From assembly GCA_016929515.1 (NCBI GenBank), contig JAFGIR010000082.1, positions 1 through 49,605 on the forward strand: a DNA stretch of 49,605 bases, in the 5' to 3' direction. Of this stretch, positions 18,992-39,793 are shown piece by piece. This DNA comes from Pirellulales bacterium. Lineage in GTDB: Bacteria; Planctomycetota; Planctomycetia; Pirellulales; Thermoguttaceae. Under the pieces are notes generated by a model that was not told the DNA's origin, searched no databases, and saw only the letters and a program-made list of their open reading frames with translations. Numbering within the stretch: position 1 is the first letter of the stretch; each line of letters starts with the position of its first letter. A program made the translations under genes and the position numbers.

Positions 18992-19104
18992 CAAGTTAAG
19001 CCCTTATGCTGGCAGCCCGCTGTTGAGCCTGGAGCAAACTGTGCCGGAGAGCCGCCAAGTCACGACAAATTGTCTTTTGGTTAATCAAGACTATGCTTTG
19101 CTTG

Positions 19105-21857: not shown

Positions 21858-22850
21858 TCAAACATGCTCTTGTTGAACCACGGTACCGATGTCCACCTGC
21901 TCGATTTCTCGCGTCGCCTTGCCCAGGTACCAGAGTACCATCGCGAACAAACCGGCTGCGAAAGGAATCATTACCCAACCGGCAAAGTCGTGAGTAAATC
22001 TGTGGGCAGCTTCTCCCGAAACATGCAAGCCAAGCAAGGTCGTGACCACAATGCGAGCAGAGTTAGCGATAAGTGCAATCGGAATCGCACTGGCAAGCAA
22101 GAAAAGCTTCTCCCACCACGTGCGTCGAACGAGGATTACATAAGCAAACGCCAAGGCAAAAATCGCGACGAAGATCCGCAGGCCGGAACAGGCCTGCTCC
22201 ACTTCGAAGTGAAGGTCGTCGATAAGAATCGTGTTTCCCTCGGCAAGCGCCGGCTGGCCAAAACACTGCAAGGTCCAGCAACTCAACTGCGTGGCGACAC
22301 GTTGCAGAGGAAGACTGACCCAACGTTCCATCCGCCACGGCAACGGCACCATGAACCAAAGAAAAGCGACCGAGGGCAGGCTCCAAAGGAAAACGCGGTA
22401 GCCCGCGAGAAGCCAAACGATTCCCCCGATCAAGAGCATCATCGACCATCCATCAACGGCATCCACGTACCATCGAGCACCGAGAATGCGCACGCCAACG
22501 CTTAGCGCGATGACGATCAGTCCAGGCCACGCGAAGCCGGTCGCCGATCCCGGAAAACGGTCGCGACGAGCCCAGAGAAAGAAAACGGCAAGCGGGATCA
22601 CGAAGAAACCGTGCGAGTAATCCGGCTCTCGGTCCCACGTGTGGACCAGTCGCAGAAGCGTGGGCCAATAGGACCAGGCCACCGCGCCCGTCAGAATGGC
22701 GGCCGCCGCGATCCACCTCAACAGCCGAGCCGTTTCCGACGGCAATGGCTCTGAAGAACACTCGCAATTCGCACGTTCTTGCTTCGGAACGTCTGAACTG
22801 CGTGTCTCTGTGTGTTTTCTGGAGCGATTCTGCTTGCTCGATTCAGCCAT
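21858..22850 (-). CDS. Exosortase
   Basis: The 330-residue membrane protein has about eight hydrophobic segments after a polar 40-residue N-terminus. The catalytic triad of exosortases is present: Cys221 in VEQACSGLR, Arg266 in NSARI and His287 in THDFAGW. PDYSHGF (76-82) and MVPLPWRME are also family-typical. Exosortase is the proposed transpeptidase that cuts PEP-CTERM proteins at their C-terminal signal and passes them to the surface; a candidate target lies at 25174-26235. It is the first gene of the EPS operon on this strand. The subtype may be the planctomycete XrtU, but I cannot confirm that without profile scores. Confidence 0.92.
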   Translation of the reverse strand: MAESSKQNRSRKHTETRSSDVPKQERANCECSSEPLPSETARLLRWIAAAAILTGAVAWSYWPTLLRLVHTWDREPDYSHGFFVIPLAVFFLWARRDRFPGSATGFAWPGLIVIALSVGVRILGARWYVDAVDGWSMMLLIGGIVWLLAGYRVFLWSLPSVAFLWFMVPLPWRMERWVSLPLQRVATQLSCWTLQCFGQPALAEGNTILIDDLHFEVEQACSGLRIFVAIFALAFAYVILVRRTWWEKLFLLASAIPIALIANSARIVVTTLLGLHVSGEAAHRFTHDFAGWVMIPFAAGLFAMVLWYLGKATREIEQVDIGTVVQQEHV

Positions 22851-24961: not shown

Positions 24962-25173
24962 GCGAGCAAACTACTTAGGGCGATTTTTCTTCGCCTCGGG
25001 CGTGCCGGCCACTATATCTCTTCGGCGCATCTCGCCTTTTCGAGAAGATTTTCCGATTTTCGCCCTAACAAACGCCACCTCGGCGGCTTATAGGCTACGA
25101 ACGCAGCTCACTGCGGGTTGGCCCGCGGGGCAGACCTCCGAGGAATATTCACATCTTGAGAAAGGGGAATGTG

Positions 25174-26235
25174 ATGAAGAAGGGATTGTTAACCGTATTT
25201 GGCGTGGCATTGATGGTTGCGGTTCTCGTGCCTGGACCCACAACGGCATCGGTCATCGAACTGAACAACTACACGCTGGATTTCGTGTCGGCGGCCATCC
25301 AACAAGCGGGCAACGGCATCAACGACGCTAGTGATGCGGCTGCCGCTGGTATCGTCCGCCTGCCGGGTGTCGACGAGTGGAACTTCAACGACAAAAGCTT
25401 CGTTGGATTTGTGGACAGCGATGGCAGCGGGAATATTTCAGCCGGCGATCTATTTTACGATTTCGGCGTGGCGAATGTGACCGGTTTCGATACTGTTGGT
25501 GGATCGGTACTGAAACCCGACACCTATGGTAATTCCCTTGGGGGGGCCGGCCAAACGGCTAGCACCCATGAGCTGACGATTGCCTTCCGTGCAACGGGAG
25601 TTCAGGTGTCGAATGCCTTCTTCGTGATCCAATCACTTGACCAGCTGGATGCGTATGTCGACGCGGGTGTTGGCTTCACGCCTTCGGATATTTCGGCTGC
25701 GGGTTCCTATGTCGATGGCTTGCTGGTCGAAGATGCCCGCGACCTTATTTCTGGTTCTGGCAACAACACGGTTCCGAGCGAGCCGGCCGGTGAACTGGCA
25801 ATGAGGTTCACGATGCAGGACTATTTGACGGGTGAAGACAATGACTTCGAGGAGGACTTCCTTGCTGACGACGGTTCTCCCTTGTCGGTAGACGTCAACG
25901 TGGTCGAAGCCACCACGCCCGACCCGGTTCCGAATTGGCAATTGGTCATCGGCGTGACGGACACGACGAATGTCCTTACGAACAGTGGCGCTTTGACGGT
26001 CGCTCAGCAACTCGGAGGGGTTTTCGGCTTCAACCCTGGCATACAGGTTGATCCAATCAACAACCCGGCGATGTTCGTGGGTGGCTCTTATGGCGGCGTG
26101 GCTTTCGACTTCGGGTTCGTCTTCGACTCCGAGGGTTCGTTGAACAAGGAAATCGTTCCGGAACCGTGGACCGCGCTGATTTGGGGTGGCCTTGGCCTCT
26201 TCGGTTTGGCACTGGCTCGTTATCGCAGGAAGTAG
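25174..26235 (+). CDS. PEP-CTERM sorting-signal protein with EF-hand-like loop
   Basis: The 353-residue protein begins at the ATG at 25174 with AAGGGGA six bases upstream. Residues 1-25 form a signal peptide (MKKGLLTVFGVALMVAV, likely cut after TTA). DSDGSGNISAGD (81-92) has the Asp/Asp/Ser/Asp spacing of an EF-hand or dockerin calcium loop. A second acidic patch, EDNDFEEDF, lies near residue 225. The C-terminus has the tripartite sorting signal: VPEP (328-331), a hydrophobic segment and ARYRRK at the very end. The exosortase at 21858-22850 should process it. The middle resembles no enzyme I know; it may be a structural surface or matrix protein. Confidence 0.9.
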   Translation: MKKGLLTVFGVALMVAVLVPGPTTASVIELNNYTLDFVSAAIQQAGNGINDASDAAAAGIVRLPGVDEWNFNDKSFVGFVDSDGSGNISAGDLFYDFGVANVTGFDTVGGSVLKPDTYGNSLGGAGQTASTHELTIAFRATGVQVSNAFFVIQSLDQLDAYVDAGVGFTPSDISAAGSYVDGLLVEDARDLISGSGNNTVPSEPAGELAMRFTMQDYLTGEDNDFEEDFLADDGSPLSVDVNVVEATTPDPVPNWQLVIGVTDTTNVLTNSGALTVAQQLGGVFGFNPGIQVDPINNPAMFVGGSYGGVAFDFGFVFDSEGSLNKEIVPEPWTALIWGGLGLFGLALARYRRK

Positions 26236-26272
26236 TGGTAGGCCGTTCGGATTCGGTTATTCGTGATACTAA

Positions 26273-26320: not shown

Positions 26321-26350
26321 CATCGTTTCCGGGGATTGTCGGGATGCTGT

Positions 26351-28090
26351 CTAGACGCCCGAACAACTCGATGTGTCGCAAGCTCCCACCTGACCGATGC
26401 CGTAGCGTCCAGGTGCGAAGATGTTGTGGGGGTCCAGGGCCTGTTTGATCTTGTTGGCCATGGCGGCAAACGTCGGTGAATGCTGCATGATCCGGTCCAT
26501 GTAGGCCACGGTGGTCCGATACTGTTGATATCCCGCGGCTGCGGTGGTCTCGCACATTTCGTTGTACAACGTCATCGCTCTTGCAGTCTCCTCGGCGTCT
26601 TCGCGGTCGAAGAAGATCGACATCAGAGCGATAATCGATCGAGGGTTCGCAAGCATCAGAGCAGTCGAGAAGTCGAATCGATGCTTCTCGAACAGCGGCT
26701 TCACGAGATCGAGCAATTCGTTCATTTCCTTGCCAGTTGAGGGAACGACTATTCCCGCCCACATCAAGCCGCACCGGTCGCGAGCTGGATCGATATTGGT
26801 TCGGGGACGCTCCATTTTGGTTTTGAAATAGCAGTGCCCGACGAAGTAGTCGCTTGGTACTCCCTGAAGGAGAGAATGGATGTGGGGAAAAGCCTCCAGG
26901 TACTCGTAGGGTTTTCCAATCAAGCGGACGGTCAGACGGTTGACCAAGCCGGCGAATCTCGAACTCGACCGGGCCTTTTTTAGGAAACTGACCAGACGTT
27001 TTAGCAGCGAGATTTTCTGATCCGTTACAAACATGAGCTTCCCGTAGGGCGAGAGCTCTTTCTTGATTAGCGCGCGATGGGCGCGAAGTTGGGCGGGGCT
27101 TCCGTAGATCCCTCCGCCGAAGCTCCACGGTGCGATATTGTACCGCTTGCGAAGTTGTGCCTTGGTTTCCTGGGAGAGACAGCTTTCGCCGTTCAGGAGA
27201 TGATGCGGATATTTCCCTACGAGGGCCAGACCAATGAAATCGTTGATGATGTGTACCTTGCTCTGAATCGCGCCCTGAAGAGACAGACGCCGGATCTTGT
27301 CTATCATGATCGGCATGTCTTCTTCTCGTCGAAGCTCGAAAACGTAGGAATTGAAGGCCTGTGGTTTCGGCATCAGCCAGATTCCCATCTTGGTCACAAT
27401 GCCATAATTGGATTGGCTGAAGAGTCCTTCAAAGTAAGGCCCGACACCCCATTTGAAAACATTGCAGGTCTTGGACTTGGAAAAGTGGGCGGCGCCGGTG
27501 CGAACCAGGCTTCCATCGGGCAGGACAACTTCCATGCCACAGACTTTCTCAAAGTGATCTCCGTAAGGGGTCTCGCCGATACCGCGTTCCAAAGCGTTCC
27601 CGACCACGCTGCCGTCGGAGGGGCCGTCGGTGCAGTCGGACCACAGCTGGATGTTGTTCTCTTTCAGGTAGTCATCCAACTGACGTTGCGTCACGCCTGG
27701 TTCGACGACTGCGTATGCCAACTCCTCGTTGACCTCAATAATCCGATTCATCCGTTCCATCATCACGACAATGGCACCGTCATGAACGGCGGTCGTCGTT
27801 CCGTATCCCCAGTTTTTTCCCCGGCCAAATGGCCATAGCGGCAGTCGGTATTTCGTGGCGATCTCGACGATCTTCTGGATTTCCTCGGTGCTGCCGGGAA
27901 AAACAACCGCCGAACATTTGCGTTCCCAAGGGATGATCGTAGCGGAGTAGCGTTCCATATCTGCGTCATCAGTAGACACATGATCCTCGCCGACCGCTTC
28001 GGCGAGTTCGGCGACCGCGAGGTGAAAGTCGCTGTTCGTCTGATCCTGAGACTTCTCGGGTCCTTCAGTGACTACATTCAGCATTGTCAT
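26351..28090 (-). CDS. VAO/PCMH-family FAD-dependent oxidoreductase (4-alkylphenol oxidase-like)
   Basis: The 579-residue protein starts at the ATG at 28090, with AGGAGG six bases upstream. The N-terminal half is a PCMH-type FAD domain, with GRGKNWGYG (89-97) and VVEPGVTQRQL (128-138). TPYGDH (174-179) and the Tyr-Arg pair in GYQQYR (520-525) match active-site residues of vanillyl-alcohol oxidase and p-cresol methylhydroxylase, and DPHNIFAPGRYGI (553-565) is the family's C-terminal signature. These enzymes oxidise the side chain of para-substituted phenols. The last residues, CDTSSCSGV, add two cysteines not typical of the family. It is the last gene of the minus-strand biosynthetic block, 165 bases after the reductase. 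The substrate is unknown. Confidence 0.85.
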   Translation of the reverse strand: MTMLNVVTEGPEKSQDQTNSDFHLAVAELAEAVGEDHVSTDDADMERYSATIIPWERKCSAVVFPGSTEEIQKIVEIATKYRLPLWPFGRGKNWGYGTTTAVHDGAIVVMMERMNRIIEVNEELAYAVVEPGVTQRQLDDYLKENNIQLWSDCTDGPSDGSVVGNALERGIGETPYGDHFEKVCGMEVVLPDGSLVRTGAAHFSKSKTCNVFKWGVGPYFEGLFSQSNYGIVTKMGIWLMPKPQAFNSYVFELRREEDMPIMIDKIRRLSLQGAIQSKVHIINDFIGLALVGKYPHHLLNGESCLSQETKAQLRKRYNIAPWSFGGGIYGSPAQLRAHRALIKKELSPYGKLMFVTDQKISLLKRLVSFLKKARSSSRFAGLVNRLTVRLIGKPYEYLEAFPHIHSLLQGVPSDYFVGHCYFKTKMERPRTNIDPARDRCGLMWAGIVVPSTGKEMNELLDLVKPLFEKHRFDFSTALMLANPRSIIALMSIFFDREDAEETARAMTLYNEMCETTAAAGYQQYRTTVAYMDRIMQHSPTFAAMANKIKQALDPHNIFAPGRYGIGQVGACDTSSCSGV

Positions 28091-28255
28091 GGCAATCCTC
28101 CTATCTGGAAAACTCGTTCGCCCAATGGGTTGGGGCGATTGTGGGATATCGAGAGCCCGAGCCAATCCGTTCTGGAAAGGTGGGCCGTTTTACAGGGGCT
28201 CAAAATTTGTGGATTATTCCCCATGTAACTGACGGTCCGAACACGGATATATAGC

Positions 28256-29446
28256 TTATTGTCTGTCAACGGCAACAGCTTCCCCGACACGACTGGGTGA
28301 CGATTGAACGGCGCCGTTGCGATGCGTTTCTTGTGTTTTTCGATAAAACCCGAGTATTCGATCGAGGTAGCGATCGACGGGTGGCAAGGTCAAAGCGTGG
28401 GTTGCATAGAATGCTTGTGTGTTGGTGGTGTCGAACGTCTGTCGTTCACCTAGATACGCCAGGAAGAAAGGCAGGCTTTTCAGCGCCCGTTGGGCATCTC
28501 CGTGACTGAGTCGCGTGGCCCATGGCAGCAGTCGACGCAACAGCGTGTCCGAAATTGGTCGAAGGCGGGGGAGCTGTTCCCCATGAGTGGTCGCGAACGC
28601 TCGAAGGCGCTTCGATAGATCGGTTAGTTGGATGGCCTGCTCTGGGCCGGAGCAGAGGTGGAAGATCTTGCCGACCGCATCCGCGTGGCGACTAGCAATG
28701 TAAATTGCCTGGGCTACGTAATCAACAGGGACAATGTCGAGCGTCGCGTCGCCCGTGTCCACGACAAAGCCTCGTGTCCTTTTTCCGGTGAGAAACTCAC
28801 AGAGGTAGTAGAAGACCTGGAAATGGCTGATCCTGCCGGTCCGCGAGTTGCCCACAACCATGCTGGGACGGTGGATGGTCAGGGGTAGTCCCTCATCAAG
28901 TTGCTTGAGCAAAAACTCCTCCGCCTCTGCCTTGGCGGCTTCGTACGTGTTGTGGAATCCGCGTGATTCGGTCAATGGTCTTTCCGGAATCAATCCGGGC
29001 ATTCGTCCCGCAACACCAATGGTGCTGATCACATCGAGCTTGCGGAATATACCTCGTTGTTGAGAGGTTCTTGCCAGTTCCACAACATGCCTGACAGGAT
29101 CGATAGTGTTGGTTCGCGCCTCATCCATGGACTGATTGAGTTTGACGTTTCCCGCGCAGTGGACAACATGCGTGAGTTTGCTGCCGAGTTGATCGAAGGT
29201 ATTGCGATCCAGGCCAAGTCGTGGTTGAGATACGTCTCCACAAAATGCAATCACTCGGTCTTTCAGAGAGCGGTCGTTCGGAGTCAGCTCCCAATATTCG
29301 TAGAGTCGATCCAACCGCGTCTGGAGATGTGCCGGTGAATCGGCTCGGATGAGAAGACTGACCTGGCAATCCCCGGACTGTAAGAAAAGTGGGACCAACT
29401 CGGTGCCGATGACGCCCGTCGCCCCGGTGATGAGGACATGATTCAT
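28256..29446 (-). CDS. NAD(P)-dependent thioester/acyl-CoA reductase-like protein
   Basis: The 396-residue protein is an extended short-chain dehydrogenase of the male-sterility/thioester-reductase type. GATGVIG (8-14) binds the nucleotide, HCAGNV (96-101) and STIGVAGR follow, and Tyr168-x3-Lys172 in NTYEAAKAEAE is catalytic. IHRPSMVVGNSRTG and LDIVPVDYVA are typical of fatty acyl-CoA reductases and of carboxylic acid reductase R domains. It should reduce an acyl thioester to an aldehyde or alcohol. The start ATG at 29446 overlaps the stop of the acyl-AMP ligase by four bases, so the two genes may together act as a split carboxylic acid reductase. No carrier protein gene is seen nearby. Confidence 0.82.
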   Translation of the reverse strand: MNHVLITGATGVIGTELVPLFLQSGDCQVSLLIRADSPAHLQTRLDRLYEYWELTPNDRSLKDRVIAFCGDVSQPRLGLDRNTFDQLGSKLTHVVHCAGNVKLNQSMDEARTNTIDPVRHVVELARTSQQRGIFRKLDVISTIGVAGRMPGLIPERPLTESRGFHNTYEAAKAEAEEFLLKQLDEGLPLTIHRPSMVVGNSRTGRISHFQVFYYLCEFLTGKRTRGFVVDTGDATLDIVPVDYVAQAIYIASRHADAVGKIFHLCSGPEQAIQLTDLSKRLRAFATTHGEQLPRLRPISDTLLRRLLPWATRLSHGDAQRALKSLPFFLAYLGERQTFDTTNTQAFYATHALTLPPVDRYLDRILGFYRKTQETHRNGAVQSSPSRVGEAVAVDRQ

Positions 29447-31284
29447 GTCGGGAGCTTCTCCAAAGGACGTGACGTCGACGTGTCCAGGCAAGGTTCGTTG
29501 GGCTGAGCGTACATGCGTTCAATCAATTCAGCATGTAATTCGCTGACCCGGTCTCGCCGGATCTTGAGCGTCGGAGTGAGTTCGCCGCTTGCCACGCTCA
29601 ACGGACGCGGCAGGATCGCGAAATCGGCAATTCGTTCGTGCCGGGCGAGGTTTCTGCCATAGAATTCAATCTCGCGGCGAATCAGGGATTCGACCGTTTC
29701 AAGATCGCCGGAAGAATCGGAAGCCGGATCGAGATGGAGTTCGGGCTTGCCAAGTTTCTCGCACAATGCCGTCTGGCAGACCGCGACTAGGCCGACCAGA
29801 TACTTCCGTCCGTTGCCAAGGACAACCATTTGATCAATGTAGGGACTTCGGCAGTACGTAGCCGCGATGGGGGTTGGTGAAATGCGACGTCCAGTGGAGG
29901 TCTTGAGAATGTCGACCGTCCGTCCCGATAGGTAGAGAAAGCCGTCGGGGTCGACGTGGCCGATGTCGCCTGTTTGCCAAAAACCGTCTTCGGTCAAACG
30001 ACTGTCCGCGTCTTTGCCGTGGTAGTAATGTTTCAGGACACCTGGGCCGCGCATTTGGATTTCGCCATCGGCCGTGATTCGGATTTCATTTTGGGGAAAC
30101 GGCTTGCCTACTGAGCCGAATCGATAACACGTTGGCCGATTCGCCGCCATGGGGACCGTATTCTCGCTTATTCCATAGGCCTCAAGCACGAGGAGTCCGA
30201 TTCCATGAAGGAACTCAAGCAACCATTGCGGGGTGGGCGAGGAACCCGTGACCATGAACTTCATGTTGCCTCCCATCACGTCGCGTACCTTTCGGAGCGC
30301 CAGTCGATCAAGGATGCCATGACGGATTCGAAGTCCCAAGGGGATTTTTTTTTGCTCGCGTTCACATTCCGCCCGTGCCATTCCACACCGCAACGCGGCT
30401 CCAAAGGTGGCCTTGATCCACCAGGGGCTGCTGGAAACCGTCTGCATGATGTTTTCATGCAGCTTTTCATAGAAACGAGGTACCGCAACAAAAACCGAGG
30501 GTCGAACTTCGCACACGCACTCCATGATTTCTCTGGGATTTTGCACGAAATAGGTTTTCGCCCCACAATCAATGGCCACGAGATTCATCATTCGCTGGAA
30601 GAGGTGAGCCATCGGCAGCCAACAGAGCATCGAGTCGCTTCGCGTAATCTCGGGAAAGAAATGGCCGATTGCCCGACACGCGATCATGATTTGGTGATGC
30701 GAGTATTCGATTGCCTTGGGTCGACCAGTCGTGCCTGACGTGTACAGCAGGATTGCCGAATCATCGGCCGCGACATTGGGCAAACAAGAATCGTCCCGCT
30801 TCTCGAAACCGGAGGTCATCTCGTCCCAACGCCGCCACCTCTCGCCCGGCCGAGTTGCGGTTGGATCCAGGTGTACAACAAACTTCAACTCACCCAAGAT
30901 GTCCGTCGGGATCTTCTCGGCGTTTTCCGTCGTGTCGACAACCAGGCAACTTGTCTCGGAATGTTTCAGCAGATAGGCCACGTCGTTCGGTGTGGCATGT
31001 GGATCGATGCCGACGATGACGGCTCCGGCAAGAAGGCCCGCCATTTCAGCAGTCTGCCACTGCGGGCAAGTGTGAGACAAGATTGCAAGCCGATCGCCCT
31101 TGCCGAGTCCCATGTGTCGAAGCGCGGCCGATACGTTCCGCACCTCGTCCCAGAATTCCGACCAAGTTTGGCCTATCCATTCCCGAGAAGGCGAGCGATG
31201 GAAGCGGGCAGCGACCTGTGAGTCTTCCTCCAGCCGATCGTGCAGCAGCGAGGTGATCGTCATTGAGTCACTATTGCGGTTCAT
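29443..31284 (-). CDS. AMP-dependent acyl-CoA synthetase/ligase
   Basis: The 613-residue protein is an ANL-family ligase closest to long-chain acyl-CoA synthetases. YTSGTTGRPK (181-190) is the phosphate-binding loop. Later come EAYGISENT (adenylate motif), GFWQTGDIGHVDPDGFLY and, at the C-terminal domain, ELTPTLKIRRDRV with the catalytic Lys. I start it at the ATG at 31284, which has GAGGAAG about ten bases upstream and overlaps the PP-loop gene by 14 bases; an ATG at 31263 has no ribosome site. It should activate a carboxylic acid as acyl-AMP and then acyl-CoA. The overlap with the reductase suggests that its product is reduced next. Confidence 0.88.
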   Translation of the reverse strand: MNRNSDSMTITSLLHDRLEEDSQVAARFHRSPSREWIGQTWSEFWDEVRNVSAALRHMGLGKGDRLAILSHTCPQWQTAEMAGLLAGAVIVGIDPHATPNDVAYLLKHSETSCLVVDTTENAEKIPTDILGELKFVVHLDPTATRPGERWRRWDEMTSGFEKRDDSCLPNVAADDSAILLYTSGTTGRPKAIEYSHHQIMIACRAIGHFFPEITRSDSMLCWLPMAHLFQRMMNLVAIDCGAKTYFVQNPREIMECVCEVRPSVFVAVPRFYEKLHENIMQTVSSSPWWIKATFGAALRCGMARAECEREQKKIPLGLRIRHGILDRLALRKVRDVMGGNMKFMVTGSSPTPQWLLEFLHGIGLLVLEAYGISENTVPMAANRPTCYRFGSVGKPFPQNEIRITADGEIQMRGPGVLKHYYHGKDADSRLTEDGFWQTGDIGHVDPDGFLYLSGRTVDILKTSTGRRISPTPIAATYCRSPYIDQMVVLGNGRKYLVGLVAVCQTALCEKLGKPELHLDPASDSSGDLETVESLIRREIEFYGRNLARHERIADFAILPRPLSVASGELTPTLKIRRDRVSELHAELIERMYAQPNEPCLDTSTSRPLEKLPT

Positions 31285-32419
31285 CAGCGCACACTTCCTC
31301 AAGGTCTCTTATTTCCGCATCGTTCATTTCTTCAAGCTGACAACGGTCTTCAGACGGGCAAACGTTGTTTATGTCTGGTTCGCCCCTGGTAATGCGCAGA
31401 TCGCTCGGGTTCAAATCGAGCCATTTCAATGCCTTCTTTACGTGCTTGCCGAGAAGAATCTGCTTGCGAATCATGAAGTCGACGAGTGGGCCCAGGAGCC
31501 GCCAGTAGCGCCGGCTCGCCTTTTTTTCCCGGATAAGTGCGGCGAATTCGGGCGCATATGAGTTGTAGCCGAGGTTTTTGAGATCCGAGTACATCAACAA
31601 CCAGTTGACCGGGCAGTTGCTTAGAATTGGACTTGCGTGTCGTGTGTTACGGACGAGCCCCAGTTCAACAACGGTCTTCATCACCTCCGTCTGGTTATAG
31701 CGCCATGCGTGAAAGGGCGCCAGATACCGAGGAAAACGCGTGTCGGCCGGGTAGTTGGCCGGATTCCAGAACAGTTGAAGGTCTGCCTTGCTGAATTGTC
31801 CGCTGCCGCGGATTTCCTGAGGTATCCAGTCGGTTTCGGTGATCATTGCCTTGGGGAATTCGTAGACCATCCGATCCGGGTCCGGCTGGCCCGGAGAATA
31901 GCCCGCCAGGATCAATGGTATGTTCTTTTCCACGGCCAGTTTCAAGGCATAGCCCTCGGTTAGCGGCGCACACACATAGCAGACGGTCCGCACCGCCCCG
32001 CGCGCATTCTGATTCTGGAGCAGAAACCGAAACAGTCTTCGGTAGAGCTGTTTTGGGGGTGTATAGGTGATATGAGGAACTTCCAAGCGAGCGACAGTCT
32101 GATGGATGTTCTTCCATGCAATATCCGGCACATGGATATTGACCGTAAAAGCCAACGCGTTCAATCCGTAGTCGTGCTTAATCTTGTGAAGCAGATAGCA
32201 ACTGTCCTTCCCTCCACTCAGCATGACAATGCAGTCGTACTCGCCTTCGCCCCGACACGAATCGAGCGCCAATTCGAGGTCGCGCTGTCGCTCGACGCGT
32301 TGTTGTTCTTCCGATTCCAGGTCGACAGTCCGGCGTTGACGACAGTACGCACACACGCCTTGAGCGTCGATATTTGCCCCTGGAACCGCATCCGGCAGAA
32401 GACAGTTTTTACATTTCAT
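31271..32419 (-). CDS. PP-loop ATP pyrophosphatase, N-acetyl sugar amidotransferase-like
   Basis: The 382-residue protein has the PP-loop SGGKDS (68-73), used by amidotransferases and thiolases to adenylate a carbonyl oxygen. It starts MKCKNCLLPD, with Cys pairs at 3/6 and 23/26, as in WbpG/PseA-type proteins that amidate sugar acids using ammonia. A further pair lies at Cys147/Cys150 (CYVC). The combination could also fit a sulfur-inserting alpha-hydrolase, so amidation against thiolation stays open. The ATG at 32419 has AGGAAGG eight bases upstream. It overlaps a 29-codon frame upstream and the ligase gene downstream. In WbpG systems a glutaminase and cyclase subunit lie nearby; none is seen here. 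Confidence 0.8.
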   Translation of the reverse strand: MKCKNCLLPDAVPGANIDAQGVCAYCRQRRTVDLESEEQQRVERQRDLELALDSCRGEGEYDCIVMLSGGKDSCYLLHKIKHDYGLNALAFTVNIHVPDIAWKNIHQTVARLEVPHITYTPPKQLYRRLFRFLLQNQNARGAVRTVCYVCAPLTEGYALKLAVEKNIPLILAGYSPGQPDPDRMVYEFPKAMITETDWIPQEIRGSGQFSKADLQLFWNPANYPADTRFPRYLAPFHAWRYNQTEVMKTVVELGLVRNTRHASPILSNCPVNWLLMYSDLKNLGYNSYAPEFAALIREKKASRRYWRLLGPLVDFMIRKQILLGKHVKKALKWLDLNPSDLRITRGEPDINNVCPSEDRCQLEEMNDAEIRDLEEVCADEPQ

Positions 32420-32498
32420 TCGCTCCACCTTCCTGCTCGGTTGGCGCTTCTTGATGGCTGTGCCGCAAGTCGTTAAGCCAAAACCTCCCTGTGTTCAT
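32409..32498 (-). CDS. Possible 29-residue peptide gene upstream of the PP-loop enzyme
   Basis: An ATG at 32498 has AGAGG six bases upstream, as good as any ribosome site nearby. The frame runs 29 codons to a TAA at 32409, eleven bases inside the PP-loop gene. The peptide begins MNTGRFWLNDLRHSH and ends EGGANEM. It has no signal peptide or membrane segment. It lies between the HlyD gene and the biosynthetic genes, so it could be a leader peptide for translational coupling, a small subunit or, less likely, a modified peptide precursor. Chance occurrence is possible. Confidence 0.4.
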   Translation of the reverse strand: MNTGRFWLNDLRHSHQEAPTEQEGGANEM

Positions 32499-32604
32499 GG
32501 TTTTCCTCTTGTCTTATTCCGAGGTCGTGTCGGTGTCTCGGGTCAATGGGTTTCCCCGCAGTGTGAGTCTCGTCTTGAAATGTCGATGGTTCCGCACTTT
32601 TCTC

Positions 32605-33738
32605 CTAACGTTGCTCGTGGTTCTCACTTTGGAAGACGCTTTCATGTACCTGAGGCTCTGACGGACCAATCCGCGTGGTGTTGTCGATTGTCGTGGGTTC
32701 CGCGGTGGTAGGCGTGGCTTGTCGTGGGTCAACGACGACATCCACGCGCAGGCCAAGCAACAGTGAGTGTTCGTCTTCTAGTTCGATCCAGATTTCTCGT
32801 GTCTTTGTGTCCTGACGCTCGGTGGGCCGGTTGCTCCAGAGTTCCTTGTGGCCCATGCGCGGACTGAGGCGGATGACGCGGCCTTTAAGTCCGTCGCCGG
32901 GCAGGCCGTCGGCGGTAATCGTCGCGTTCATGCCGAGTTTGAGACGCGGGGCGTCGAGTTCATCGACGTAGGCTCTCACGTAGTAATGACTCGTGTCGGC
33001 CATAATGATGGCCGGTTCCGCCGACGCGGGGCTCGTCAATTCGCCCTCGCGGCAGTCGACCTTGAGAATCTGACCTCGGCAAGGGGCTCGCAAGACGGTC
33101 TGATCTTGTCGGACCTTGGCGAGTTCAAGTCGGGCGCTAGCGGCTTGGATTCGGGCGTTTTCGATTTCCACCTCGTCGGGGCGGGCGGAAGCATCGAGCC
33201 GTATCATCCGCGCCTTGGCCGCGGCAACTTCGGCGGTCAAGGTATCGAGCAGGGTTTTCTTGTCGTCGGCCTCCTGCTGCGAGACGGCTCGGGCCTCGCG
33301 CAGATTGTTGATCCGTTCCCAGGAGACCCGGGCCCTTTCCCACTCGGCCCGCTTGGCTTCGTACATTGCTCGGGCCTCGCTCCGCTGCTGCGGATGGGCG
33401 CCGTTGAGCAGGCGTTCGCGTTGAGCCTTGGCCATTTCGAGTTCCGCCGCCGCCAGGGCGACGTCACAACGATATTGCCGATCGTCGAGCGTGAGAAGGA
33501 CTTCGCCCGCTTCGACCGCCTGTCCCTCCTCGACATACACATTGGTGATTTGGCCGGTCATCTGAGGTCGCAGTTCAATCTCGGGCGTGCTCCCTTCGAT
33601 CCGTCCGTCGGCGTAGATCATGTGTTGCCGCGGCTCGCAGGCCGAAGGCTTAAACGAAGTCTGCGACTGGGTGGCGATCATCAGTCCCAAAGCCACAACG
33701 ACGGTGGTCCCTACGGCGATCATGGTGACTTTCGTCAT
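32605..33738 (-). CDS. HlyD/DevB-type membrane fusion protein
   Basis: The 377-residue protein has one N-terminal membrane segment (about 5-22), then a biotinyl-lipoyl-like half (GQITNVYVEEGQAVEAGEVL), a long coiled-coil hairpin (about 95-210) and the second lipoyl half (TVLRAPCRGQILKVD). This is the adaptor that links an inner-membrane ABC transporter to a TolC channel. The start at 33738 lies six bases after the stop of the ABC ATPase. The last 35 residues are Thr/Pro-rich and probably disordered. Together with the next two genes it forms a DevBCA-like exporter; the TolC partner is likely the gene at 38317-39777. Confidence 0.9.
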   Translation of the reverse strand: MTKVTMIAVGTTVVVALGLMIATQSQTSFKPSACEPRQHMIYADGRIEGSTPEIELRPQMTGQITNVYVEEGQAVEAGEVLLTLDDRQYRCDVALAAAELEMAKAQRERLLNGAHPQQRSEARAMYEAKRAEWERARVSWERINNLREARAVSQQEADDKKTLLDTLTAEVAAAKARMIRLDASARPDEVEIENARIQAASARLELAKVRQDQTVLRAPCRGQILKVDCREGELTSPASAEPAIIMADTSHYYVRAYVDELDAPRLKLGMNATITADGLPGDGLKGRVIRLSPRMGHKELWSNRPTERQDTKTREIWIELEDEHSLLLGLRVDVVVDPRQATPTTAEPTTIDNTTRIGPSEPQVHESVFQSENHEQR

Positions 33739-33744
33739 GGTTCT

Positions 33745-34497
33745 TTACCGTTCACTTTCCAAAAGCGCGGTCGACGTTGATCCGGCGGTCTCTGCAATAC
33801 GTCCGTTTTCCAAGTGAAATACCTTGTCGGCAAAAGGAAAGATGCGTTGATCGTGCGTGACGATGATGGCGGTTCTTCCTTCCTCGGTCGTGAGCCGACG
33901 AAGCAGCTTCATTACCTCTTGACCGTTGGTCGCGTCGAGCGACGCGGTCGGTTCGTCGGCGAGAACGAGGTCTGGATCGGCGCTCAGTGCCCGAGCCAAG
34001 GCTACGCGCTGACACTCTCCAGAACTGAGATTGTGTGAATGGGTGTGTGCTCGGTGAGACAGGCCCACGGCATCCAACAGGTCGGCCGCGCGGCTCGCGG
34101 CCTTGTGATGAGGCATGCCTTGGAGAGTCAGCGGCACGCAGACATTTTCGAGGCTCGTTAGTCCGCGTATCAGGTGAAACCGTTGAAAGACGAAACCGAT
34201 CCGGTTTCGCCGAATGGCGGTGCGTGCCTGCTCATCGAGTGTCGAAATGTCCTGGTCGAGAATTTGGACGCGTCCCTGGTCGGGAGAGAGAATACAGCCG
34301 AGAATCGACAGAAGCGTGGTCTTGCCGCTGCCCGAGGGCCCGGCCAAAAAAACACACTGCTCTCGCCGGATTACGAGATCGACCCCTTCGAGGACGGGCG
34401 TAACCGTCGCGCCCGAACGATACGACTTGTGGATACCTTCAGTGCTGACCGCGATCGGCTTGGTGATTGTTTCATCGAGTTGGCTTCCGATCATCAT
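33745..34497 (-). CDS. ABC transporter ATP-binding protein (MacB/DevA/LolD type)
   Basis: The 250-residue ATPase has Walker A GPSGSGKTT (53-61), the Q-loop FVFQRF (Gln105), the signature LSSGECQR (157-164), Walker B DLVLADEP (176-183) and the H-loop VTHD (213-216). It belongs to the group that works with FtsX/MacB-type permeases. Two ATGs at 34497 and 34494 are possible; the first overlaps the permease stop by four bases. It powers the exporter formed with the neighbouring permease and HlyD protein. The substrate is not evident, but the co-directional acyl-ligase, reductase and FeeM-like genes suggest a small lipid-like molecule. Confidence 0.92.
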   Translation of the reverse strand: MMIGSQLDETITKPIAVSTEGIHKSYRSGATVTPVLEGVDLVIRREQCVFLAGPSGSGKTTLLSILGCILSPDQGRVQILDQDISTLDEQARTAIRRNRIGFVFQRFHLIRGLTSLENVCVPLTLQGMPHHKAASRAADLLDAVGLSHRAHTHSHNLSSGECQRVALARALSADPDLVLADEPTASLDATNGQEVMKLLRRLTTEEGRTAIIVTHDQRIFPFADKVFHLENGRIAETAGSTSTALLESER

Positions 34498-35618
34498 GAC
34501 TCGAGTACCATCAGCGGGTCAACGTTTCTGATCCTCAAATAGGGGAGGAGCGATGCGACGAGGCAGATCACCAGTACGAGCAGGCAACTGCCCAAGGAGA
34601 GCCACACCGGTACGACGATCGGTGCTCTCGGCGTGCTGTAGAAGTATACGATTCCCCAGACGGCCAGGAGGCCGAGAATCGATCCGACCAAGGCCATCGC
34701 GAGGGCCTGAATCAGGAGGATGGAGCAGACCTGGCGTTCGGTGGCGCCGATGGCCTTGAGCGTGCCGAATTCGGCCAGCCGATCGAGGACCATGGCGTAA
34801 AGCGTCTGTGCGACGATCACCATTCCCACGAGAAGTCCCAGCAACGTGGCCGCGCCGAAGCTGATTCCCAGGCCGGTTCGTGTCATCCAATAATTGATCG
34901 AAATCCAGCCGTACTCCTCACGCGGAAAAACATCGAGTTCCGGGACACGACGTTGGATCGCTTCGCAGACGCGGTTGACGTTGGCGTTGGGTTCGAGTTG
35001 AACCAGGAAATAAGAACAGACGTCCGGGCTTTTGTTCAGATAGCTGGCAGCCCGGTCGTACGTGGTGAAAATATATGGCGTGACCAGGAATCCCATGATG
35101 CCGTGACTCATGGCGACGATTTTGGCCCGACGGCCGCCGATTTCTCGGGTAGTACCTACCTTGGGAAACTCGAGTTTTTGGACTTCACATTCATCCATGA
35201 TGACAGCATTTTGCCGAGCGAGCGCGAGCGGATTGCCTTGAGTAACGTTCCACGCACTGCCCAGCAAGCTGGCTTGATCGGCACCGACAACCGCCACCTG
35301 TTCAAATCCTCCGCTGGGAAGCGACATGTCGGCGAAGCCGATGAGATAGGGTTCTGCCCGTTTAACGCCGGGCACCGCGCGGATGCGGTTGACCCACCGC
35401 TGGGGAATGTCGCGAGGGAAGTCGACGTTGTGCATCTTTCGGTGACCAACCCAGATATCGGCCTGACCATGTTCCACCAGCAGGCTGGCCTTGCGAATCA
35501 GGCCAAGAAAGAAACCTCCCTGCACATTCACCAGAACGATCGAAAAGACCACACCAACCAGAGCGGTGAGCAGTTTTCCCCGATCGGCGATCAGCGTTTT
35601 CAGTGCAATGGACCACAT
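34494..35618 (-). CDS. FtsX/DevC-type ABC transporter permease
   Basis: The 374-residue protein has one membrane segment near the N-terminus (about 17-40), a periplasmic domain of about 200 residues and three membrane segments in the C-terminal third (GAATLLGLLVGMVIVAQTL; ILLIQALAMALVGSILGLL; SLGSCLLVLVICLVASLLP). That is the MacB/DevC layout. VLDRLAEFGTLKAIGAT is the conserved coupling-helix motif of the family. It pairs with the ATPase gene that overlaps its stop. No strong ribosome site is seen before the ATG at 35618. It lies 162 bases after the first FeeM-like gene. Confidence 0.9.
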   Translation of the reverse strand: MWSIALKTLIADRGKLLTALVGVVFSIVLVNVQGGFFLGLIRKASLLVEHGQADIWVGHRKMHNVDFPRDIPQRWVNRIRAVPGVKRAEPYLIGFADMSLPSGGFEQVAVVGADQASLLGSAWNVTQGNPLALARQNAVIMDECEVQKLEFPKVGTTREIGGRRAKIVAMSHGIMGFLVTPYIFTTYDRAASYLNKSPDVCSYFLVQLEPNANVNRVCEAIQRRVPELDVFPREEYGWISINYWMTRTGLGISFGAATLLGLLVGMVIVAQTLYAMVLDRLAEFGTLKAIGATERQVCSILLIQALAMALVGSILGLLAVWGIVYFYSTPRAPIVVPVWLSLGSCLLVLVICLVASLLPYLRIRNVDPLMVLES

Positions 35619-35780
35619 GGACAGTCGACCACGTTCCGAGGTTGATCAGGCATTGTTTTGGCCCAGTTCACGATGTCCTCTGGGCTCGGTCGATAGGTGG
35701 TGCTTTCCGATCGGCGTTGGGGTTTGAGCGTAATCGGCCACGTCTGAATCGTACGTTACGCTCCGAGGCGTTGATCATGA

Positions 35781-36542
35781 TCAGGCGGCGTCTCGTCCCA
35801 ACGCGCGGTGTCTTTCGGCCTTGCCTGCCAGGAAATCCCCTTCAGGCGATATTCCCCTCAGGCGGCAAAAATGGAGATGGTCCGCCTGGGGGATTTTGGG
35901 AGCCTTGAAACGAGATTCCGGTTGCTCCCCTGTTTCATATTGCTGCAGCAGCTTCGGATTGACCCGCGATCGCAATTTGTGCAGATCGATGCGGCAACAG
36001 ACAGATGGGTTGCCACGAACCGCCTTGTTGGGACGTAATGGGCCCAGCGATTCTGCCCCGAGGCAATACTGGTAGAATTTCTGATGGCTCGGATGAATGG
36101 CCATCAAGAGATCGTCGTAGCCTGCCCAGCGCGTGTAGTGAAACATAAAGCGAGTGATCGCGAAGAAGACGGCTCGCGGATGGAACTCGTGCGTTGGCCA
36201 GACCGCAAGACACGTGATCTCAGCCACCTTTCTGCCGTCGGACCGCAACGATTGCACTTCAAACGGATAGGTCGCCTCCAACTGCATTCCTGATGCATTG
36301 TCGCCGACCACCGTGAGCGTTCCGAGGACCTCATCGAGTTCGCTTGTCGCTATGATGGTTCGGCTTACGGGCAGGCCAAAAACGGGCTGATAGACAATAC
36401 GCCCAGGATGGGGTGGGATGTAGTTTTTCGCTAAGTAGCAGCGGTACACCAATTCGAACGCGCCGGTCCATTCGCACCGGTTGCTGGCGATACGCACGTC
36501 AAGCGCAAGACTAGGAACAGGAAACCGAATGAGTTTCTTCAT
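35781..36542 (-). CDS. FeeM-like N-acyl amino acid synthase (GNAT fold), copy 1
   Basis: The 253-residue protein resembles the exosortase-associated acyltransferases related to FeeM, the N-acyl-tyrosine synthase that uses acyl-ACP. Conserved parts are ELVYRCYLAKNYI, LTVVGDNASGMQLEATYP, KVAEITCLAVWP and DLLMAIHPSHQKFYQYCLG. The C-terminal 50 residues are variable and polar. It should transfer an acyl group to the amine of an amino acid. No acyl carrier protein is nearby, so the acyl donor would come from fatty acid synthesis. It lies between the second copy and the exporter genes. Weak ribosome site; start at the ATG at 36542. Confidence 0.78.
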   Translation of the reverse strand: MKKLIRFPVPSLALDVRIASNRCEWTGAFELVYRCYLAKNYIPPHPGRIVYQPVFGLPVSRTIIATSELDEVLGTLTVVGDNASGMQLEATYPFEVQSLRSDGRKVAEITCLAVWPTHEFHPRAVFFAITRFMFHYTRWAGYDDLLMAIHPSHQKFYQYCLGAESLGPLRPNKAVRGNPSVCCRIDLHKLRSRVNPKLLQQYETGEQPESRFKAPKIPQADHLHFCRLRGISPEGDFLAGKAERHRALGRDAA

Positions 36543-36662
36543 GCTCGGAGTGGAGTTAATGGTTCTAGCCCTTTTGAAACTTCAGTGCGGGTATCGCATG
36601 CAAAACGGAATGGGGCAATCTGACAGTATTAAGTGGCAATAAGGGCTGATACTATGTTCCTT

Positions 36663-36680
36663 GGCGCGGACTTCCGCGCC
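36663..36680. repeat. Perfect inverted repeat, 8-base arms
   Basis: GGCGCGGA-CT-TCCGCGCC is perfectly self-complementary apart from two central bases. It is about 120 bases upstream of the copy 1 FeeM-like start. No T tract follows on either strand, so it is more likely a protein site or repeat than a terminator. Confidence 0.6.
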
Positions 36681-36794
36681 GCAACGTCGCCTGGAGGAGA
36701 ACGCGCGGCGGACAATGCTGACAAGTGGACAGCCCCAGGGCGAGTCCAAGCTGGAAAAATGGGTTGTCCGGCAGGCGGGAGAATACCGCAATCG

Positions 36795-36810
36795 CCTTGG
36801 ACGTCCAAGG
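36795..36810. repeat. Perfect 16-base palindrome
   Basis: CCTTGGACGTCCAAGG reads the same on both strands. It lies about 250 bases upstream of the copy 1 FeeM-like gene and about 180 bases beyond the stop of copy 2. It would suit a dimeric regulator. Confidence 0.6.
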
Positions 36811-36992
36811 CCAATTGCCGGCGGCCGCAAGGGGGCTCTAAAGTGTTGTTGGTAAAGTAGTTACATGTCACTGGCGACGGCATGTTGACTGGCCTGGTAA
36901 GGCCTGCGCGGCAAGAAACACGGGAGGGCAGTGAGAGGTGTTGATGCCGCGACGTCCGCCCCTGGTTGTCGAACTTGGCCGAGACTCGGTCG

Positions 36993-37775
36993 TCAGGCAA
37001 CCGCTGCGCCAGCCATTTCAGTCCGGCTGTCGTCGGCTTGGTCGTCCATGCCTCCCAGCGGCATCGGCTCGAACGCGGAATCGAGCATGTTCCGGAAATA
37101 GTCGCATTGCGATTGTGGAATTGGTTGTGGCTTGAGTTGCGCGTGGGGAATCGGCTGACCGAAAAACGTGTCCCAGCTTCTTGGCCGTTCGCGATCGACC
37201 CTTGCGAAATTCAACGACAGGGCGACTGCGGGATGGTTTCGGGCCGAAGGATAGGCCCTTTCATCGCCGATCGGTTCGAACGCCATGTAACGCTTGTAGA
37301 ACCTCGCGTGTCGCGGGTGGACGGCGGCGACGAATTCATGCACACCGCGATACCGTGCGTGTTGCGCCGCCAGGCGACACAGCCTGACGAATATGGGGAA
37401 GAACCGTTTCGGATCGTTGCGACGGTCGGCCAGACACGAGAGTTCGCCCATCCAAAGGCCGCGCGCCCGGCGCTCCATGATCTCCTGTTTATAAACGGAA
37501 TCCATGGGCAACCCCAACTCCCCATCGAGCACCAGCGTTACCGTGGAGATAACTTCGTCGTCGCAGATGGCCACGAACACTTCGGTGGTCGGAAGCAGAT
37601 GATACGGGGTCACCCGCATCTCGTGCCAGTTCGGTTCCGTCAAACCGGCGCGCAGGTAGGAATAGTGAACGAGTCGAAATGCCGCGGCTCGCTGTTCGCG
37701 CGTAGCCGCAATTCGATACTGAACATCCGCGATCGTTTTTTGGGACGAACTCGCGCCTAGTCGAATAGTAGACAT
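36993..37775 (-). CDS. FeeM-like N-acyl amino acid synthase (GNAT fold), copy 2
   Basis: The 260-residue protein shares the FeeM-like pattern with copy 1 but is clearly divergent: AAFRLVHYSYLRAGL, VISTVTLVLDGELGLPMDSVY, GELSCLADRR and FVAAVHPRHARFYKRYMAFEPIG. The GELSCLA and HPRHARFY segments are the most family-typical. It should make an N-acyl amino acid or a related amide. The ATG at 37775 has GAAGG about five bases upstream. A candidate promoter lies at 38114-38141, which would give a leader of more than 300 bases. Two non-identical copies suggest two products or two acyl or amino acid specificities. Confidence 0.8.
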   Translation of the reverse strand: MSTIRLGASSSQKTIADVQYRIAATREQRAAAFRLVHYSYLRAGLTEPNWHEMRVTPYHLLPTTEVFVAICDDEVISTVTLVLDGELGLPMDSVYKQEIMERRARGLWMGELSCLADRRNDPKRFFPIFVRLCRLAAQHARYRGVHEFVAAVHPRHARFYKRYMAFEPIGDERAYPSARNHPAVALSLNFARVDRERPRSWDTFFGQPIPHAQLKPQPIPQSQCDYFRNMLDSAFEPMPLGGMDDQADDSRTEMAGAAVA

Positions 37776-38076
37776 TGTACCTTCACCCGTTTCACGGTGT
37801 CGAATCAATGTTGTGGATGACGTTGTACGATCTTGCGGCAGGCACAGGGTAAATTACAGCCGCGCGTCGAACACCTGTACGGGGTCGGAGGCACCGAAGC
37901 GGAGTGCCAAACGCCCACGCGATTCAAGGGTGAACCACTAGACCGAGGATGTGGACGTGCGACTCCATCTGAAGCTTGCACTCCGAAAAGATGAGATTCG
38001 AAAAACGCCTTGCACCACTGGTTTCTTGGTCCTTAGCGGCCATAACCAGCGAAGATGTCGGCGCAATATGACGAGC

Positions 38077-38102
38077 GACAAGACTCTTAGACAAGACTCA
38101 TA
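38077..38102. repeat. 13-base tandem repeat (two units)
   Basis: GACAAGACTCTTA is followed directly by GACAAGACTCATA, differing at one base. It begins about five bases downstream of the expected start point of the promoter at 38114-38141 and so would be in the early transcript of the copy 2 FeeM-like gene. It could be a regulator-binding site. Confidence 0.5.
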
Positions 38103-38113
38103 GCAACAATAAT

Positions 38114-38141
38114 AGCCTAGGTCGCGTGACAGACATGTCAA
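38114..38141 (-). promoter_or_regulatory. Sigma-70-type promoter for the FeeM-like/exporter block
   Basis: On the minus strand TTGACA (38141-38136) is followed after 16 bases by TAGGCT (38119-38114). The -35 box is perfect and the -10 box matches three of six, the same arrangement as at 24146-24173. It would transcribe the copy 2 FeeM-like gene with a leader of about 330 bases. Confidence 0.45.
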
Positions 38142-38316
38142 ACTTGGGCCTTGAAGAAAAGTGGCCGAGATGCCTTGAGAAATGGAAGGATAAGAGGGGC
38201 AGGACCGGTTGTGGCGATTATCGTCGCAAAGCTCCGACGCGAAATCGTGGAAGTCGACCGTGAAATGAGCGGCAGAGTGGCCGGCGTGGCCATTGCGACC
38301 GGGCGAGTCGCGATTA

Positions 38317-39777
38317 TCATTTCAATTCGCCGGTGGCGTGCTTCAGACGAAGTACGGCCAGTGCGGAATCGTAGACCGCATTGGAATGGTTTCGGTAGGT
38401 TTGCGTCCGTAGCGACTCGGCGTCAAGGACTTCGGTGTTGATGGCGGCCCCCGCCGCATAACGCGTTCGGGCTACCCGAAGGTTCTCGTCGGCCCGGGCG
38501 ATTGCTTGTGAGGTCACTTCCATTCGTCGGCGAGTCTCGTGGATATCCAGCCATGCGCGACGGACCTGCAAGGCGATTTTCGATTCCAGATCCCGCTTGA
38601 ATCTCACCAGACTTTCCGCGCGTTGCTGGAGGGCGGTCCGCTCATGACGGTTTCTGCCGCCGTCGAACAAATTCCAACTGGCGACGACACCGACAGCGGC
38701 GATACCATCGGGTGAGCGATAGCGGTTTTGCTCGAAGGCATACTCGCCGTGAACGCTGACTTGCGGGCGATTTCTGGCCGACAGGCTGGTGGCCTGATAT
38801 TGCAGGGACTGCGCCTGGGTCGTAAGGCCCGCGAGTTCCGGGCGATTTTGAAGCGCGCGGGCCGTCAGGCTCTCGACGTCTCCCTGCACGCTTTCCAGCG
38901 GCAATTCGGCAATACGAACCGGAAATTCCAAGGGCCGCCCCAATTGGCGGTTGTAGGCAGCGCGACTGGCGTCCAACCGATTGGCGGCCTGGATGGCAGC
39001 CTGCTGGGCGTCCGAAAGTGCCACTTGCGCGGCAAGCAAATCGTTTCGAGGAACCTGCGAATGCTTGAAGAGCATTTCGACTTCATGTTCGTGGGCCTTG
39101 AGAGAACGGACGGTGCTTCGGACGACTTCCAGATCATGTTGTGCCCGAAGCACCGCCACATAGTCTTCTGCAACGTGCATCCGAAGGTCGTTCACGAGTT
39201 CGGTAAATTCGAATCCGGCCGAAGCGACTTTCGCCTCGGCGGCGTCGATGCCGTACCGGATGCGACCGCTCGTGTATAGCGGCACATCCACCGCGGTACG
39301 AAATGCCCCACCCTCCTTCTGTTCGTATCGGGCGAAGTTGCTCGGCACCGGAATCGGTCCGAAATCGAACTGAAATGCTGGCTCGGCACTCCGAACCATA
39401 TACGATCCCTCGAGGTCCATGGTTGGCCAGCGTTGCGAGCGAGCCAGTTGGAGCGACTGCTCCGTCGAGGAGATGTTCCAGCGAGTTGCCTCGAGTCGTT
39501 GATTCGCGGCCAAAGCGAGGTTCCAAGCCTGATCGAGCGTTTCCAGTGGAACTGTCGTGGCATTGGAGGTGGTCGTCTGAGTTCCCCTCGCCGTCGGCGA
39601 ACTTTGAATCGCGGGGCTCGGAGCGGAGGGGCCGCTCACCACATAGCGAGTTGCCGCTGGTTGCTCGGACTGGAAACGCGGTTGGCCAACCACGGGTAAT
39701 CTCTGCGGTGAAGCAGCCGGTGGTTGGCTCGCCAGAGCGAGGAAGACGGCGGCACAGATAGTCGGATAAGTTGCCAC
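38317..39777 (-). CDS. TolC-family outer membrane efflux protein
   Basis: The 486-residue protein starts at a GTG (39777) with AAAGGGA about 11 bases upstream. A signal peptide is followed by about 60 Pro/Ser/Thr-rich residues and then two OEP repeats of long helices. The typical entries are LDQAWNLALAANQRLEATRW and LTARALQNRPELAGLTTQAQ; strand pairs follow, such as ASWNLFDGGRNRHERTAL. It should form the outer-membrane channel for the HlyD/ABC/FtsX exporter at 32605-35618, which lacks its own. It is the first gene of the co-directional block, 541 bases before copy 2 of the FeeM-like gene. Confidence 0.9.
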   Translation of the reverse strand: MATYPTICAAVFLALASQPPAASPQRLPVVGQPRFQSEQPAATRYVVSGPSAPSPAIQSSPTARGTQTTTSNATTVPLETLDQAWNLALAANQRLEATRWNISSTEQSLQLARSQRWPTMDLEGSYMVRSAEPAFQFDFGPIPVPSNFARYEQKEGGAFRTAVDVPLYTSGRIRYGIDAAEAKVASAGFEFTELVNDLRMHVAEDYVAVLRAQHDLEVVRSTVRSLKAHEHEVEMLFKHSQVPRNDLLAAQVALSDAQQAAIQAANRLDASRAAYNRQLGRPLEFPVRIAELPLESVQGDVESLTARALQNRPELAGLTTQAQSLQYQATSLSARNRPQVSVHGEYAFEQNRYRSPDGIAAVGVVASWNLFDGGRNRHERTALQQRAESLVRFKRDLESKIALQVRRAWLDIHETRRRMEVTSQAIARADENLRVARTRYAAGAAINTEVLDAESLRTQTYRNHSNAVYDSALAVLRLKHATGELK

Positions 39778-39793
39778 CGGTTTTCCATCCCTT

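Follow-up and report, generated by a model that had tools for sequence, protein, structure and literature searches.

A predicted N-acyl amino acid synthase-exporter unit with an exchangeable tailoring cassette in a planctomycete exosortase/exopolysaccharide locus

The window analysed here, 49,605 nucleotides that make up the complete contig JAFGIR010000082.1 from the draft assembly GCA_016929515.1 of a Pirellulales bacterium (4.6 Mb in 503 contigs), carries ten genes on its minus strand between positions 26351 and 39777. With somewhat better than even confidence, we propose that, within a PEP-CTERM/exopolysaccharide (EPS) surface system, this locus produces a tailored N-acyl aromatic amino acid, based most likely on N-acyl-tyrosine, and exports it. 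The locus has three parts: a synthase-exporter frame, a tailoring cassette and a PEP-CTERM gene. We compared it with about 90 further loci and with a set of 148 related genomes; gene content, order, modularity, fusion and conserved residues are read directly from these sequences, and from them we infer all reactions and substrates named below. A preliminary description of the window had listed the ten genes with their positions and families. All of them are present, nine with direct support from Pfam or NCBIfam profiles; the gene for a PP-loop enzyme is without a Pfam match.

The frame consists of a TolC-family outer-membrane channel (38317..39777; PF02321, 180 bits), two FeeM-type N-acyl amino acid synthases (36993..37808 and 35781..36542), an FtsX/DevC-like exporter permease (34494..35618; PF02687, 74 bits), a DevA/LolD-like ABC ATPase (33745..34497; PF00005, 110 bits) and an HlyD/DevB-like periplasmic adaptor (32605..33738; PF16576 and PF13437). 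Both synthases pass the curated cut-off of PF21926 (166 and 126 bits against 27), and synthase 1 matches the FeeM structure 2g0b (E 1e-5). Its gene begins with TTG and has an internal ATG 11 codons further on; if the protein starts at that ATG, the intergenic gap of up to 541 bases given in the preliminary description is right. The gene order of the frame is repeated across Pirellulales, and that of the locus lies far beyond chance, as it recurs in independent genomes. Among the 148 relatives, FeeM lies directly upstream, on the same strand, of 11 of the 13 FtsX homologs with at least 60% identity, the remaining two coming after a Wza gene, and upstream of none of the 17 more distant homologs. 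TolC stands immediately before FeeM in relatives G007, SJ197 and G115, and the FeeM pair is also present in G100. Because FeeM accompanies the close FtsX homologs and TolC precedes FeeM, TolC-FeeM-FtsX-ABC-HlyD is a conserved unit; its best reading is that it would make and export an N-acyl amino acid product. No FeeM genes other than these two were found in the genome of the window. Most other genomes have one to five FeeM-family matches, with 15 in G188 (Kiritimatiellae) and 23 in Planctomycetota MAG.432 (L026 / G151).

The strongest evidence that the window's tailoring enzymes act on the FeeM product comes from relatives in which another set of enzymes occupies the same slot. In G098 and G115, which belong to a different family of the order, the FeeM-FtsX-ABC-HlyD frame is present, in G115 preceded by TolC. 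Where the window has the PP-loop enzyme, an acyl ligase, a thioester reductase and an oxidase, these genomes have ThiF, a nitroreductase and a methyltransferase. An antisense PEP-CTERM gene, an exosortase, a kinase and a tetratricopeptide repeat (TPR) protein then follow in the order and place seen in the window. In SJ197, as in the window, the slot is filled by PP-loop, ligase and reductase genes, and the kinase neighbour is the same in SJ197, G098 and G115. ThiF also comes after HlyD in G039 and G029, and in G100 a methyltransferase like that of the ThiF loci comes after PP-loop, ligase, reductase and oxidase. In M. tuberculosis, cyclisation and desaturation of N-acyl-Tyr by ThiF and nitroreductase have been demonstrated (PMC10404671), and the pair is the conserved set of the stieleriacine clusters (PMC12479983). 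Because the tailoring sets exchange in one slot, the window's enzymes probably also act on the FeeM product, and because related loci hold ThiF and nitroreductase there, that product would be tied to N-acyl-tyrosine/oxazolone chemistry. In the window, neither enzyme was found by a Pfam scan of the open reading frames (ORFs) or by tblastn, which for ThiF used a relative's protein; a VAO-type oxidase is present instead of the nitroreductase.

The two sets are not mutually exclusive. Both occur in Methylomonas methanica (L048:1-11145), where PP-loop, ligase and reductase are found with a divergent FtsX/ABC/HlyD exporter, ThiF and nitroreductase. A PP-loop gene near ThiF, neither ligase nor reductase being present in the retrieved sequence, was seen in G007, Nostoc and Pseudomonas; loci L067, L080, L091 and L093, from a Pirellulales metagenome-assembled genome (MAG), Nostoc flagelliforme and Pseudomonas, have this arrangement. 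The pair in G007 (L022:2814-8368) adjoins a 1006-residue CoA-activase-like protein (BcrAD_BadFG and DUF2229) and a DUF6713 protein.

The cassette of the window consists of the PP-loop enzyme, of the N-acetyl sugar amidotransferase (NASAT) type (31271..32428), an AMP-forming acyl ligase (29443..31302; PF00501, 215 bits) and an NAD(P)H thioester reductase of the NAD_binding_4 family (28256..29491; PF07993, 164 bits). When 84,980 species genomes were scanned with the PP-loop family, 77 loci were obtained from Planctomycetota, Alpha-, Beta- and Gammaproteobacteria, Desulfobacterota, Omnitrophota, Kiritimatiellae and one cyanobacterium. Of these, 65 have the three genes in this order on a single strand, and six of the other 12 are truncated by contig ends. 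A 4-base overlap between the ligase and reductase genes is common, Stieleria sedimenti and Rhodopirellula SM50 encode PP-loop enzyme and ligase as a fusion in a single 961-codon frame, and the three proteins diverge in parallel (r 0.77 to 0.91, kinship not removed, against a permutation maximum of 0.18). The reductase relatives retain TGxxGxxG and YxxxK, with the MxaA reductase domain 4u7w as the best match in the PDB. In the open-access literature searched, no paper describes the cassette, and none links exosortase with a thioester reductase or PEP-CTERM with an N-acetyl sugar amidotransferase. Sigma-54 sites are reported 5' of proteobacterial PEP-CTERM genes (PMC1569441); before the cassette they gave no signal (4 of 74 against 6.2% of control windows).

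Frame and cassette are joined as in the window in the planctomycete loci L023, L024, L027 and L028. In G093 (L021, on the same contig as L028) the locus genes are packed or overlapping, which supports their probable co-transcription in that genome. Elsewhere the two are often apart: most Pirellulales have exporter and FeeM without the cassette, and the cassette is widespread beyond planctomycetes, mostly without the exporter, which most proteobacterial loci lack. The preliminary description had treated all ten genes as one set. Rather than one fixed cluster, they form two separable modules, synthase with exporter and PP-loop/ligase/reductase, the latter often with the oxidase and widespread outside planctomycetes. 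FeeM-family genes are present in 46 of 52 cassette genomes, and in several loci, for example L034, L035 and L059, one lies directly before the PP-loop gene.

The PP-loop enzyme has the motif SGGKDS and four Zn cysteines; across 78 PP-loop proteins, the Zn tetracysteine is kept in 75 and SGGxDS in 77. Its structure model (pLDDT 89.5) finds the N-acetyl sugar amidotransferase 8wex as best fold (E 6e-14, TM 0.57), followed by the TtuA sulfur transferases. Its score against TIGR03573 is 118 bits, below the curated cut-off of 203, and the cassette enzymes stand clearly apart from NASAT-like paralogs of the same order (24-37% identity). With WbpG/WbuX and LpNASAT 8wex (PMC10607449) they share PP-loop, Zn tetracysteine and fold, yet they form a clade of their own, with conserved GQPxPxRM and YLAPFHAW, tied to ligase and reductase. 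Positions 150, 153 and 272 covary: they are C/C/C in planctomycetes and one Kiloniellales MAG, C/W/F in loci that pair the PP-loop gene with ThiF, and S/Y/Y in most others (S, Y and Y in 62, 62 and 60 of 78, respectively). This variation rules out iron-sulfur chemistry as a property of the whole family.

The VAO-type 4-phenol oxidase (26351..28165; FAD_binding_4, PF01565, 111 bits), which often comes after the cassette, bears most directly on the substrate. Its best matches in the PDB are 4-phenol oxidases (8s7s, 327 bits; p-cresol methylhydroxylase, 289 bits). These enzymes have a phenolate-binding triad, Y91/Y471/R472 in RjEUGO numbering (PMC11148156). Aligned with a 4-phenol oxidase, the window enzyme has Y121, Y549 and R550 as the phenolate-binding residues; they are invariant in 15 of 15 homologs and present in four more oxidases of G151. 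The region of the covalent FAD attachment residue stayed unaligned to the solved structures. In that genome, FeeM and a VAO-family oxidase are adjacent with a gap of 2-3 bases, and a second pair is divergent, about 0.4 kb apart, in both cases without the cassette. Because of the invariant residues and the FeeM/oxidase pairs, the substrate is likely a para-hydroxyphenyl compound, which fits N-acyl-tyrosine.

The PEP-CTERM gene (25156..26235, plus strand, C-terminus VPEPWTALIWGGLGLFGLALARYRRK) is convergent with the oxidase gene. Its product ends in VPEPW, a hydrophobic stretch and RYRRK, and matches the PEP-CTERM profile only weakly. Counting the window, 30 of the 61 loci with enough sequence have a PEP-CTERM gene no further than 2.5 kb downstream of the cassette; 6 of 71 have one upstream, three of these beside an upstream oxidase. 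In 16 of the 17 loci with an adjacent oxidase, no more than 1.4 kb separates it from the PEP-CTERM gene. Shuffled tails, used as a control, gave no false match in 1145 proteins. The PEP-CTERM gene belongs to the unit, an addition to the preliminary description. The neighbours do not form a single conserved partner family: about 20, mainly proteobacterial, are related, and the window protein is not detectably among them. A match of E 6e-24 that linked it to that family was an artefact of an iteration in which it had been included.

The exosortase of the window (21858..22850, minus strand; PF09721, 206 bits; TIGR02602, 146 bits, over the cut-off), one of two in the genome, scores 169 against the XrtA model, whose cut-off is 208. 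Since 114 of the 148 planctomycete relatives have an exosortase, its presence within this group is uninformative. Outside planctomycetes, 32 of 39 cassette genomes have one against 38 of 100 Burkholderiales (kinship not corrected), a suggestive association. In Methylomonas LW13, which carries the cassette (L056), a polysaccharide band disappears when a FeeM-type synthase is disrupted (PMC11072679).

In the pathway that we favour, FeeM would couple an acyl chain to an amino acid; the AMP ligase would activate a carboxylate, which most likely belongs to this N-acyl amino acid, and the thioester reductase would convert it to the aldehyde. The PP-loop enzyme would work on that intermediate too, with the acyl amide as the probable target, as relatives of this enzyme use ATP on an amide oxygen and swap in nitrogen. 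The oxidase would oxidise the para-hydroxybenzyl carbon, and the product would leave through HlyD, ABC, FtsX and TolC; at the surface it may work with the PEP-CTERM protein encoded nearby, which the exosortase would process. Relatives of 8wex convert an N-acetyl amide to an amidine (PMC10607449), and an N-acyl amino acid likewise offers an amide, so that an amidine route is conceivable. That amidine and aldehyde then close to an imidazole-type lipid is a tentative idea, which we doubt more than we believe. Distinctly unlikely, in our judgement, is its furthest extension, in which the cassette product would be a nitrogen heterocycle derived from N-acyl-tyrosine and of an undescribed class, either an amidine or an imidazole lipid; after export it would act at the surface, on the adjacent PEP-CTERM protein or together with it, as a ligand or even as the acceptor to which the exosortase links that protein.

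Several observations weigh against the favoured pathway. Among the scanned ORFs of the window, neither a carrier protein nor a HisH/HisF-type glutaminase partner was recognised. The ligase is as similar to long-chain acyl-CoA ligases as to anything, and because of this resemblance its substrate may be a free fatty acid. The oxidase is optional to the cassette, as only about 19-20 of 49 cassette genomes gave a strong VAO homolog. Proteobacterial exosortase genes usually lie tens of kb from the cassette or on another contig, and in LW13 the FeeM-type match nearest the cassette is about 50 kb away and may be a gene other than that of PMC11072679.

The locus could instead hold two independent pathways, with FeeM and exporter yielding plain N-acyl amino acids while ligase and reductase form fatty aldehydes, which on amination by the PP-loop enzyme give a different lipid. 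The separate occurrence of the modules, which in G100 lie on different contigs, and the long-chain resemblance of the ligase agree with such a division. We consider it rather unlikely, however: the cassette replaces ThiF and nitroreductase, enzymes that act on a FeeM product, FeeM-family genes accompany it in most genomes and sometimes directly precede it, and a fatty aldehyde has no phenol for the oxidase. Quite improbable, to our mind, is that the cassette modifies an EPS sugar or sugar lipid in the manner of true N-acetyl sugar amidotransferases, with FeeM as a bystander. NASAT/WbuX provides the closest fold and profile, and the locus sits amid glycosyltransferases, but the PP-loop score is under the WbuX cut-off and the enzyme stands apart from its NASAT-like paralogs. 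Moreover, an N-acetyl sugar amidotransferase normally has a nearby HisH-like glutaminase partner, the kind of protein missing from the scanned ORFs; it is not obvious what ligase, reductase and phenol oxidase would do to a nucleotide sugar, and the fusion of PP-loop enzyme and ligase also argues against this use. Finally, the PP-loop enzyme might be a sulfur transferase like TtuA or TtcA, converting the N-acyl amide into a thioamide or thiazoline. TtuA supplies the second-best folds, and the planctomycete clade has C150-x2-C153 and C272, which we take to resemble the three-cysteine set that holds the cluster in TtuA/TtcA-like enzymes. Because most cassette members carry S, Y and Y there, the cluster site is not their common chemistry, and we regard this function as very improbable.

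The general kind of locus is already known, N-acyl amino acids beside PEP-CTERM/exosortase systems; it is the tailoring cassette that the papers searched do not describe. A 2011 study by Craig, Cherry and Brady reportedly places N-acyl amino acid synthase (NAS) genes beside such systems, and to our knowledge the role of these synthases beside exosortases has been unexplained since that year. Like the window, the stieleriacine/N-acyl dehydrotyrosine clusters of Stieleria (BGC0002080; PMC7293339, PMC12479983) have a planctomycete NAS beside EPS and PEP-CTERM genes, putative transporters and a probable product of the N-acyl-tyrosine class; unlike them, the window has PP-loop enzyme, AMP ligase, thioester reductase and VAO oxidase, with no ThiF or nitroreductase among its scanned ORFs. 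In the acyl-oxazolone (tyrazolone) pathway tyzABC / trzAS (PMC10404671, PMC12856293), as would be the case here, a NAS product is modified by an enzyme that activates it with ATP and by a flavin oxidase, but the window would use other enzyme families at both steps and has a predicted additional reduction step and a dedicated exporter. The exosortase A small-molecule set likewise has an acyl ligase and a FeeM-like acyltransferase near the exosortase. Against its profiles, however, the window ligase scores 114 bits (TIGR03098, cut-off 592), the FeeM proteins have no match at E up to 0.001 (TIGR03694), and no pyridoxal-dependent decarboxylase (TIGR03099) occurs among the scanned ORFs; TIGR03694 members are found near the cassette in proteobacteria. 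DevBCA-TolC is a glycolipid exporter, and the window's exporter proteins have DevB, DevC and DevA as their best profile matches or among the best, all below cut-off: adaptor TIGR02971 (117/129 bits), ATPase TIGR02982 (220/296) and permease TIGR01185 devC (112/290). A carboxylic acid reductase has adenylation, carrier and reductase domains in one chain, whereas ligase and reductase are separate in the window, where no carrier domain was found.

The locus lies in an exosortase/EPS setting, as the preliminary description had it. EPS genes and glycosyltransferases surround it, and further down the same strand lie the exosortase, an EPS chain-length/tyrosine autokinase (19557..21782; TIGR01007 over the cut-off, and synteny) and a PrsT-like TPR protein (14531..18994; TIGR02917, 250 bits, below the cut-off of 312, with synteny). 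In several Pirellulales the frame locus ends at this exosortase, kinase and TPR block. A NusG-like gene (40435-40992) and a Wza gene (42031-43104) flank the locus, and because TolC, NusG, Wza and FtsX are likewise grouped in G029 (L146), the exporter module seems to occupy a fixed position in the EPS locus. A TIGR03790-family protein (43483-45372; 214 bits, over the cut-off) and a RACo-type corrinoid activator (45656-47512) are encoded upstream of the EPS export gene. The possible eleventh, peptide gene of the preliminary description, most likely a 60-codon ORF at 38138-38320, had no counterpart in ORF or DNA in three relatives with the same TolC-FeeM gap and is not supported. Rfam elements were absent from positions 23000-41500, and scans for sigma-70 promoters and terminators were at chance level or uninformative.

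In conclusion, the proposal of a small-molecule pathway with its own exporter beside exosortase and EPS genes, giving an N-acylated product through reduction and oxidation steps, gains support from a gene order that is conserved in related genomes, the comparison to which the preliminary description had pointed. For the role of small molecules in exosortase systems, the locus offers a concrete unit, a constant synthase-exporter frame with exchangeable tailoring sets and, at its end, a PEP-CTERM gene and an exosortase. Since the cassette is found in culturable Stieleria, Rhodopirellula baltica, Nitrosomonas and Methylomonas, its predicted chemistry and the link to a surface protein are open to laboratory testing.

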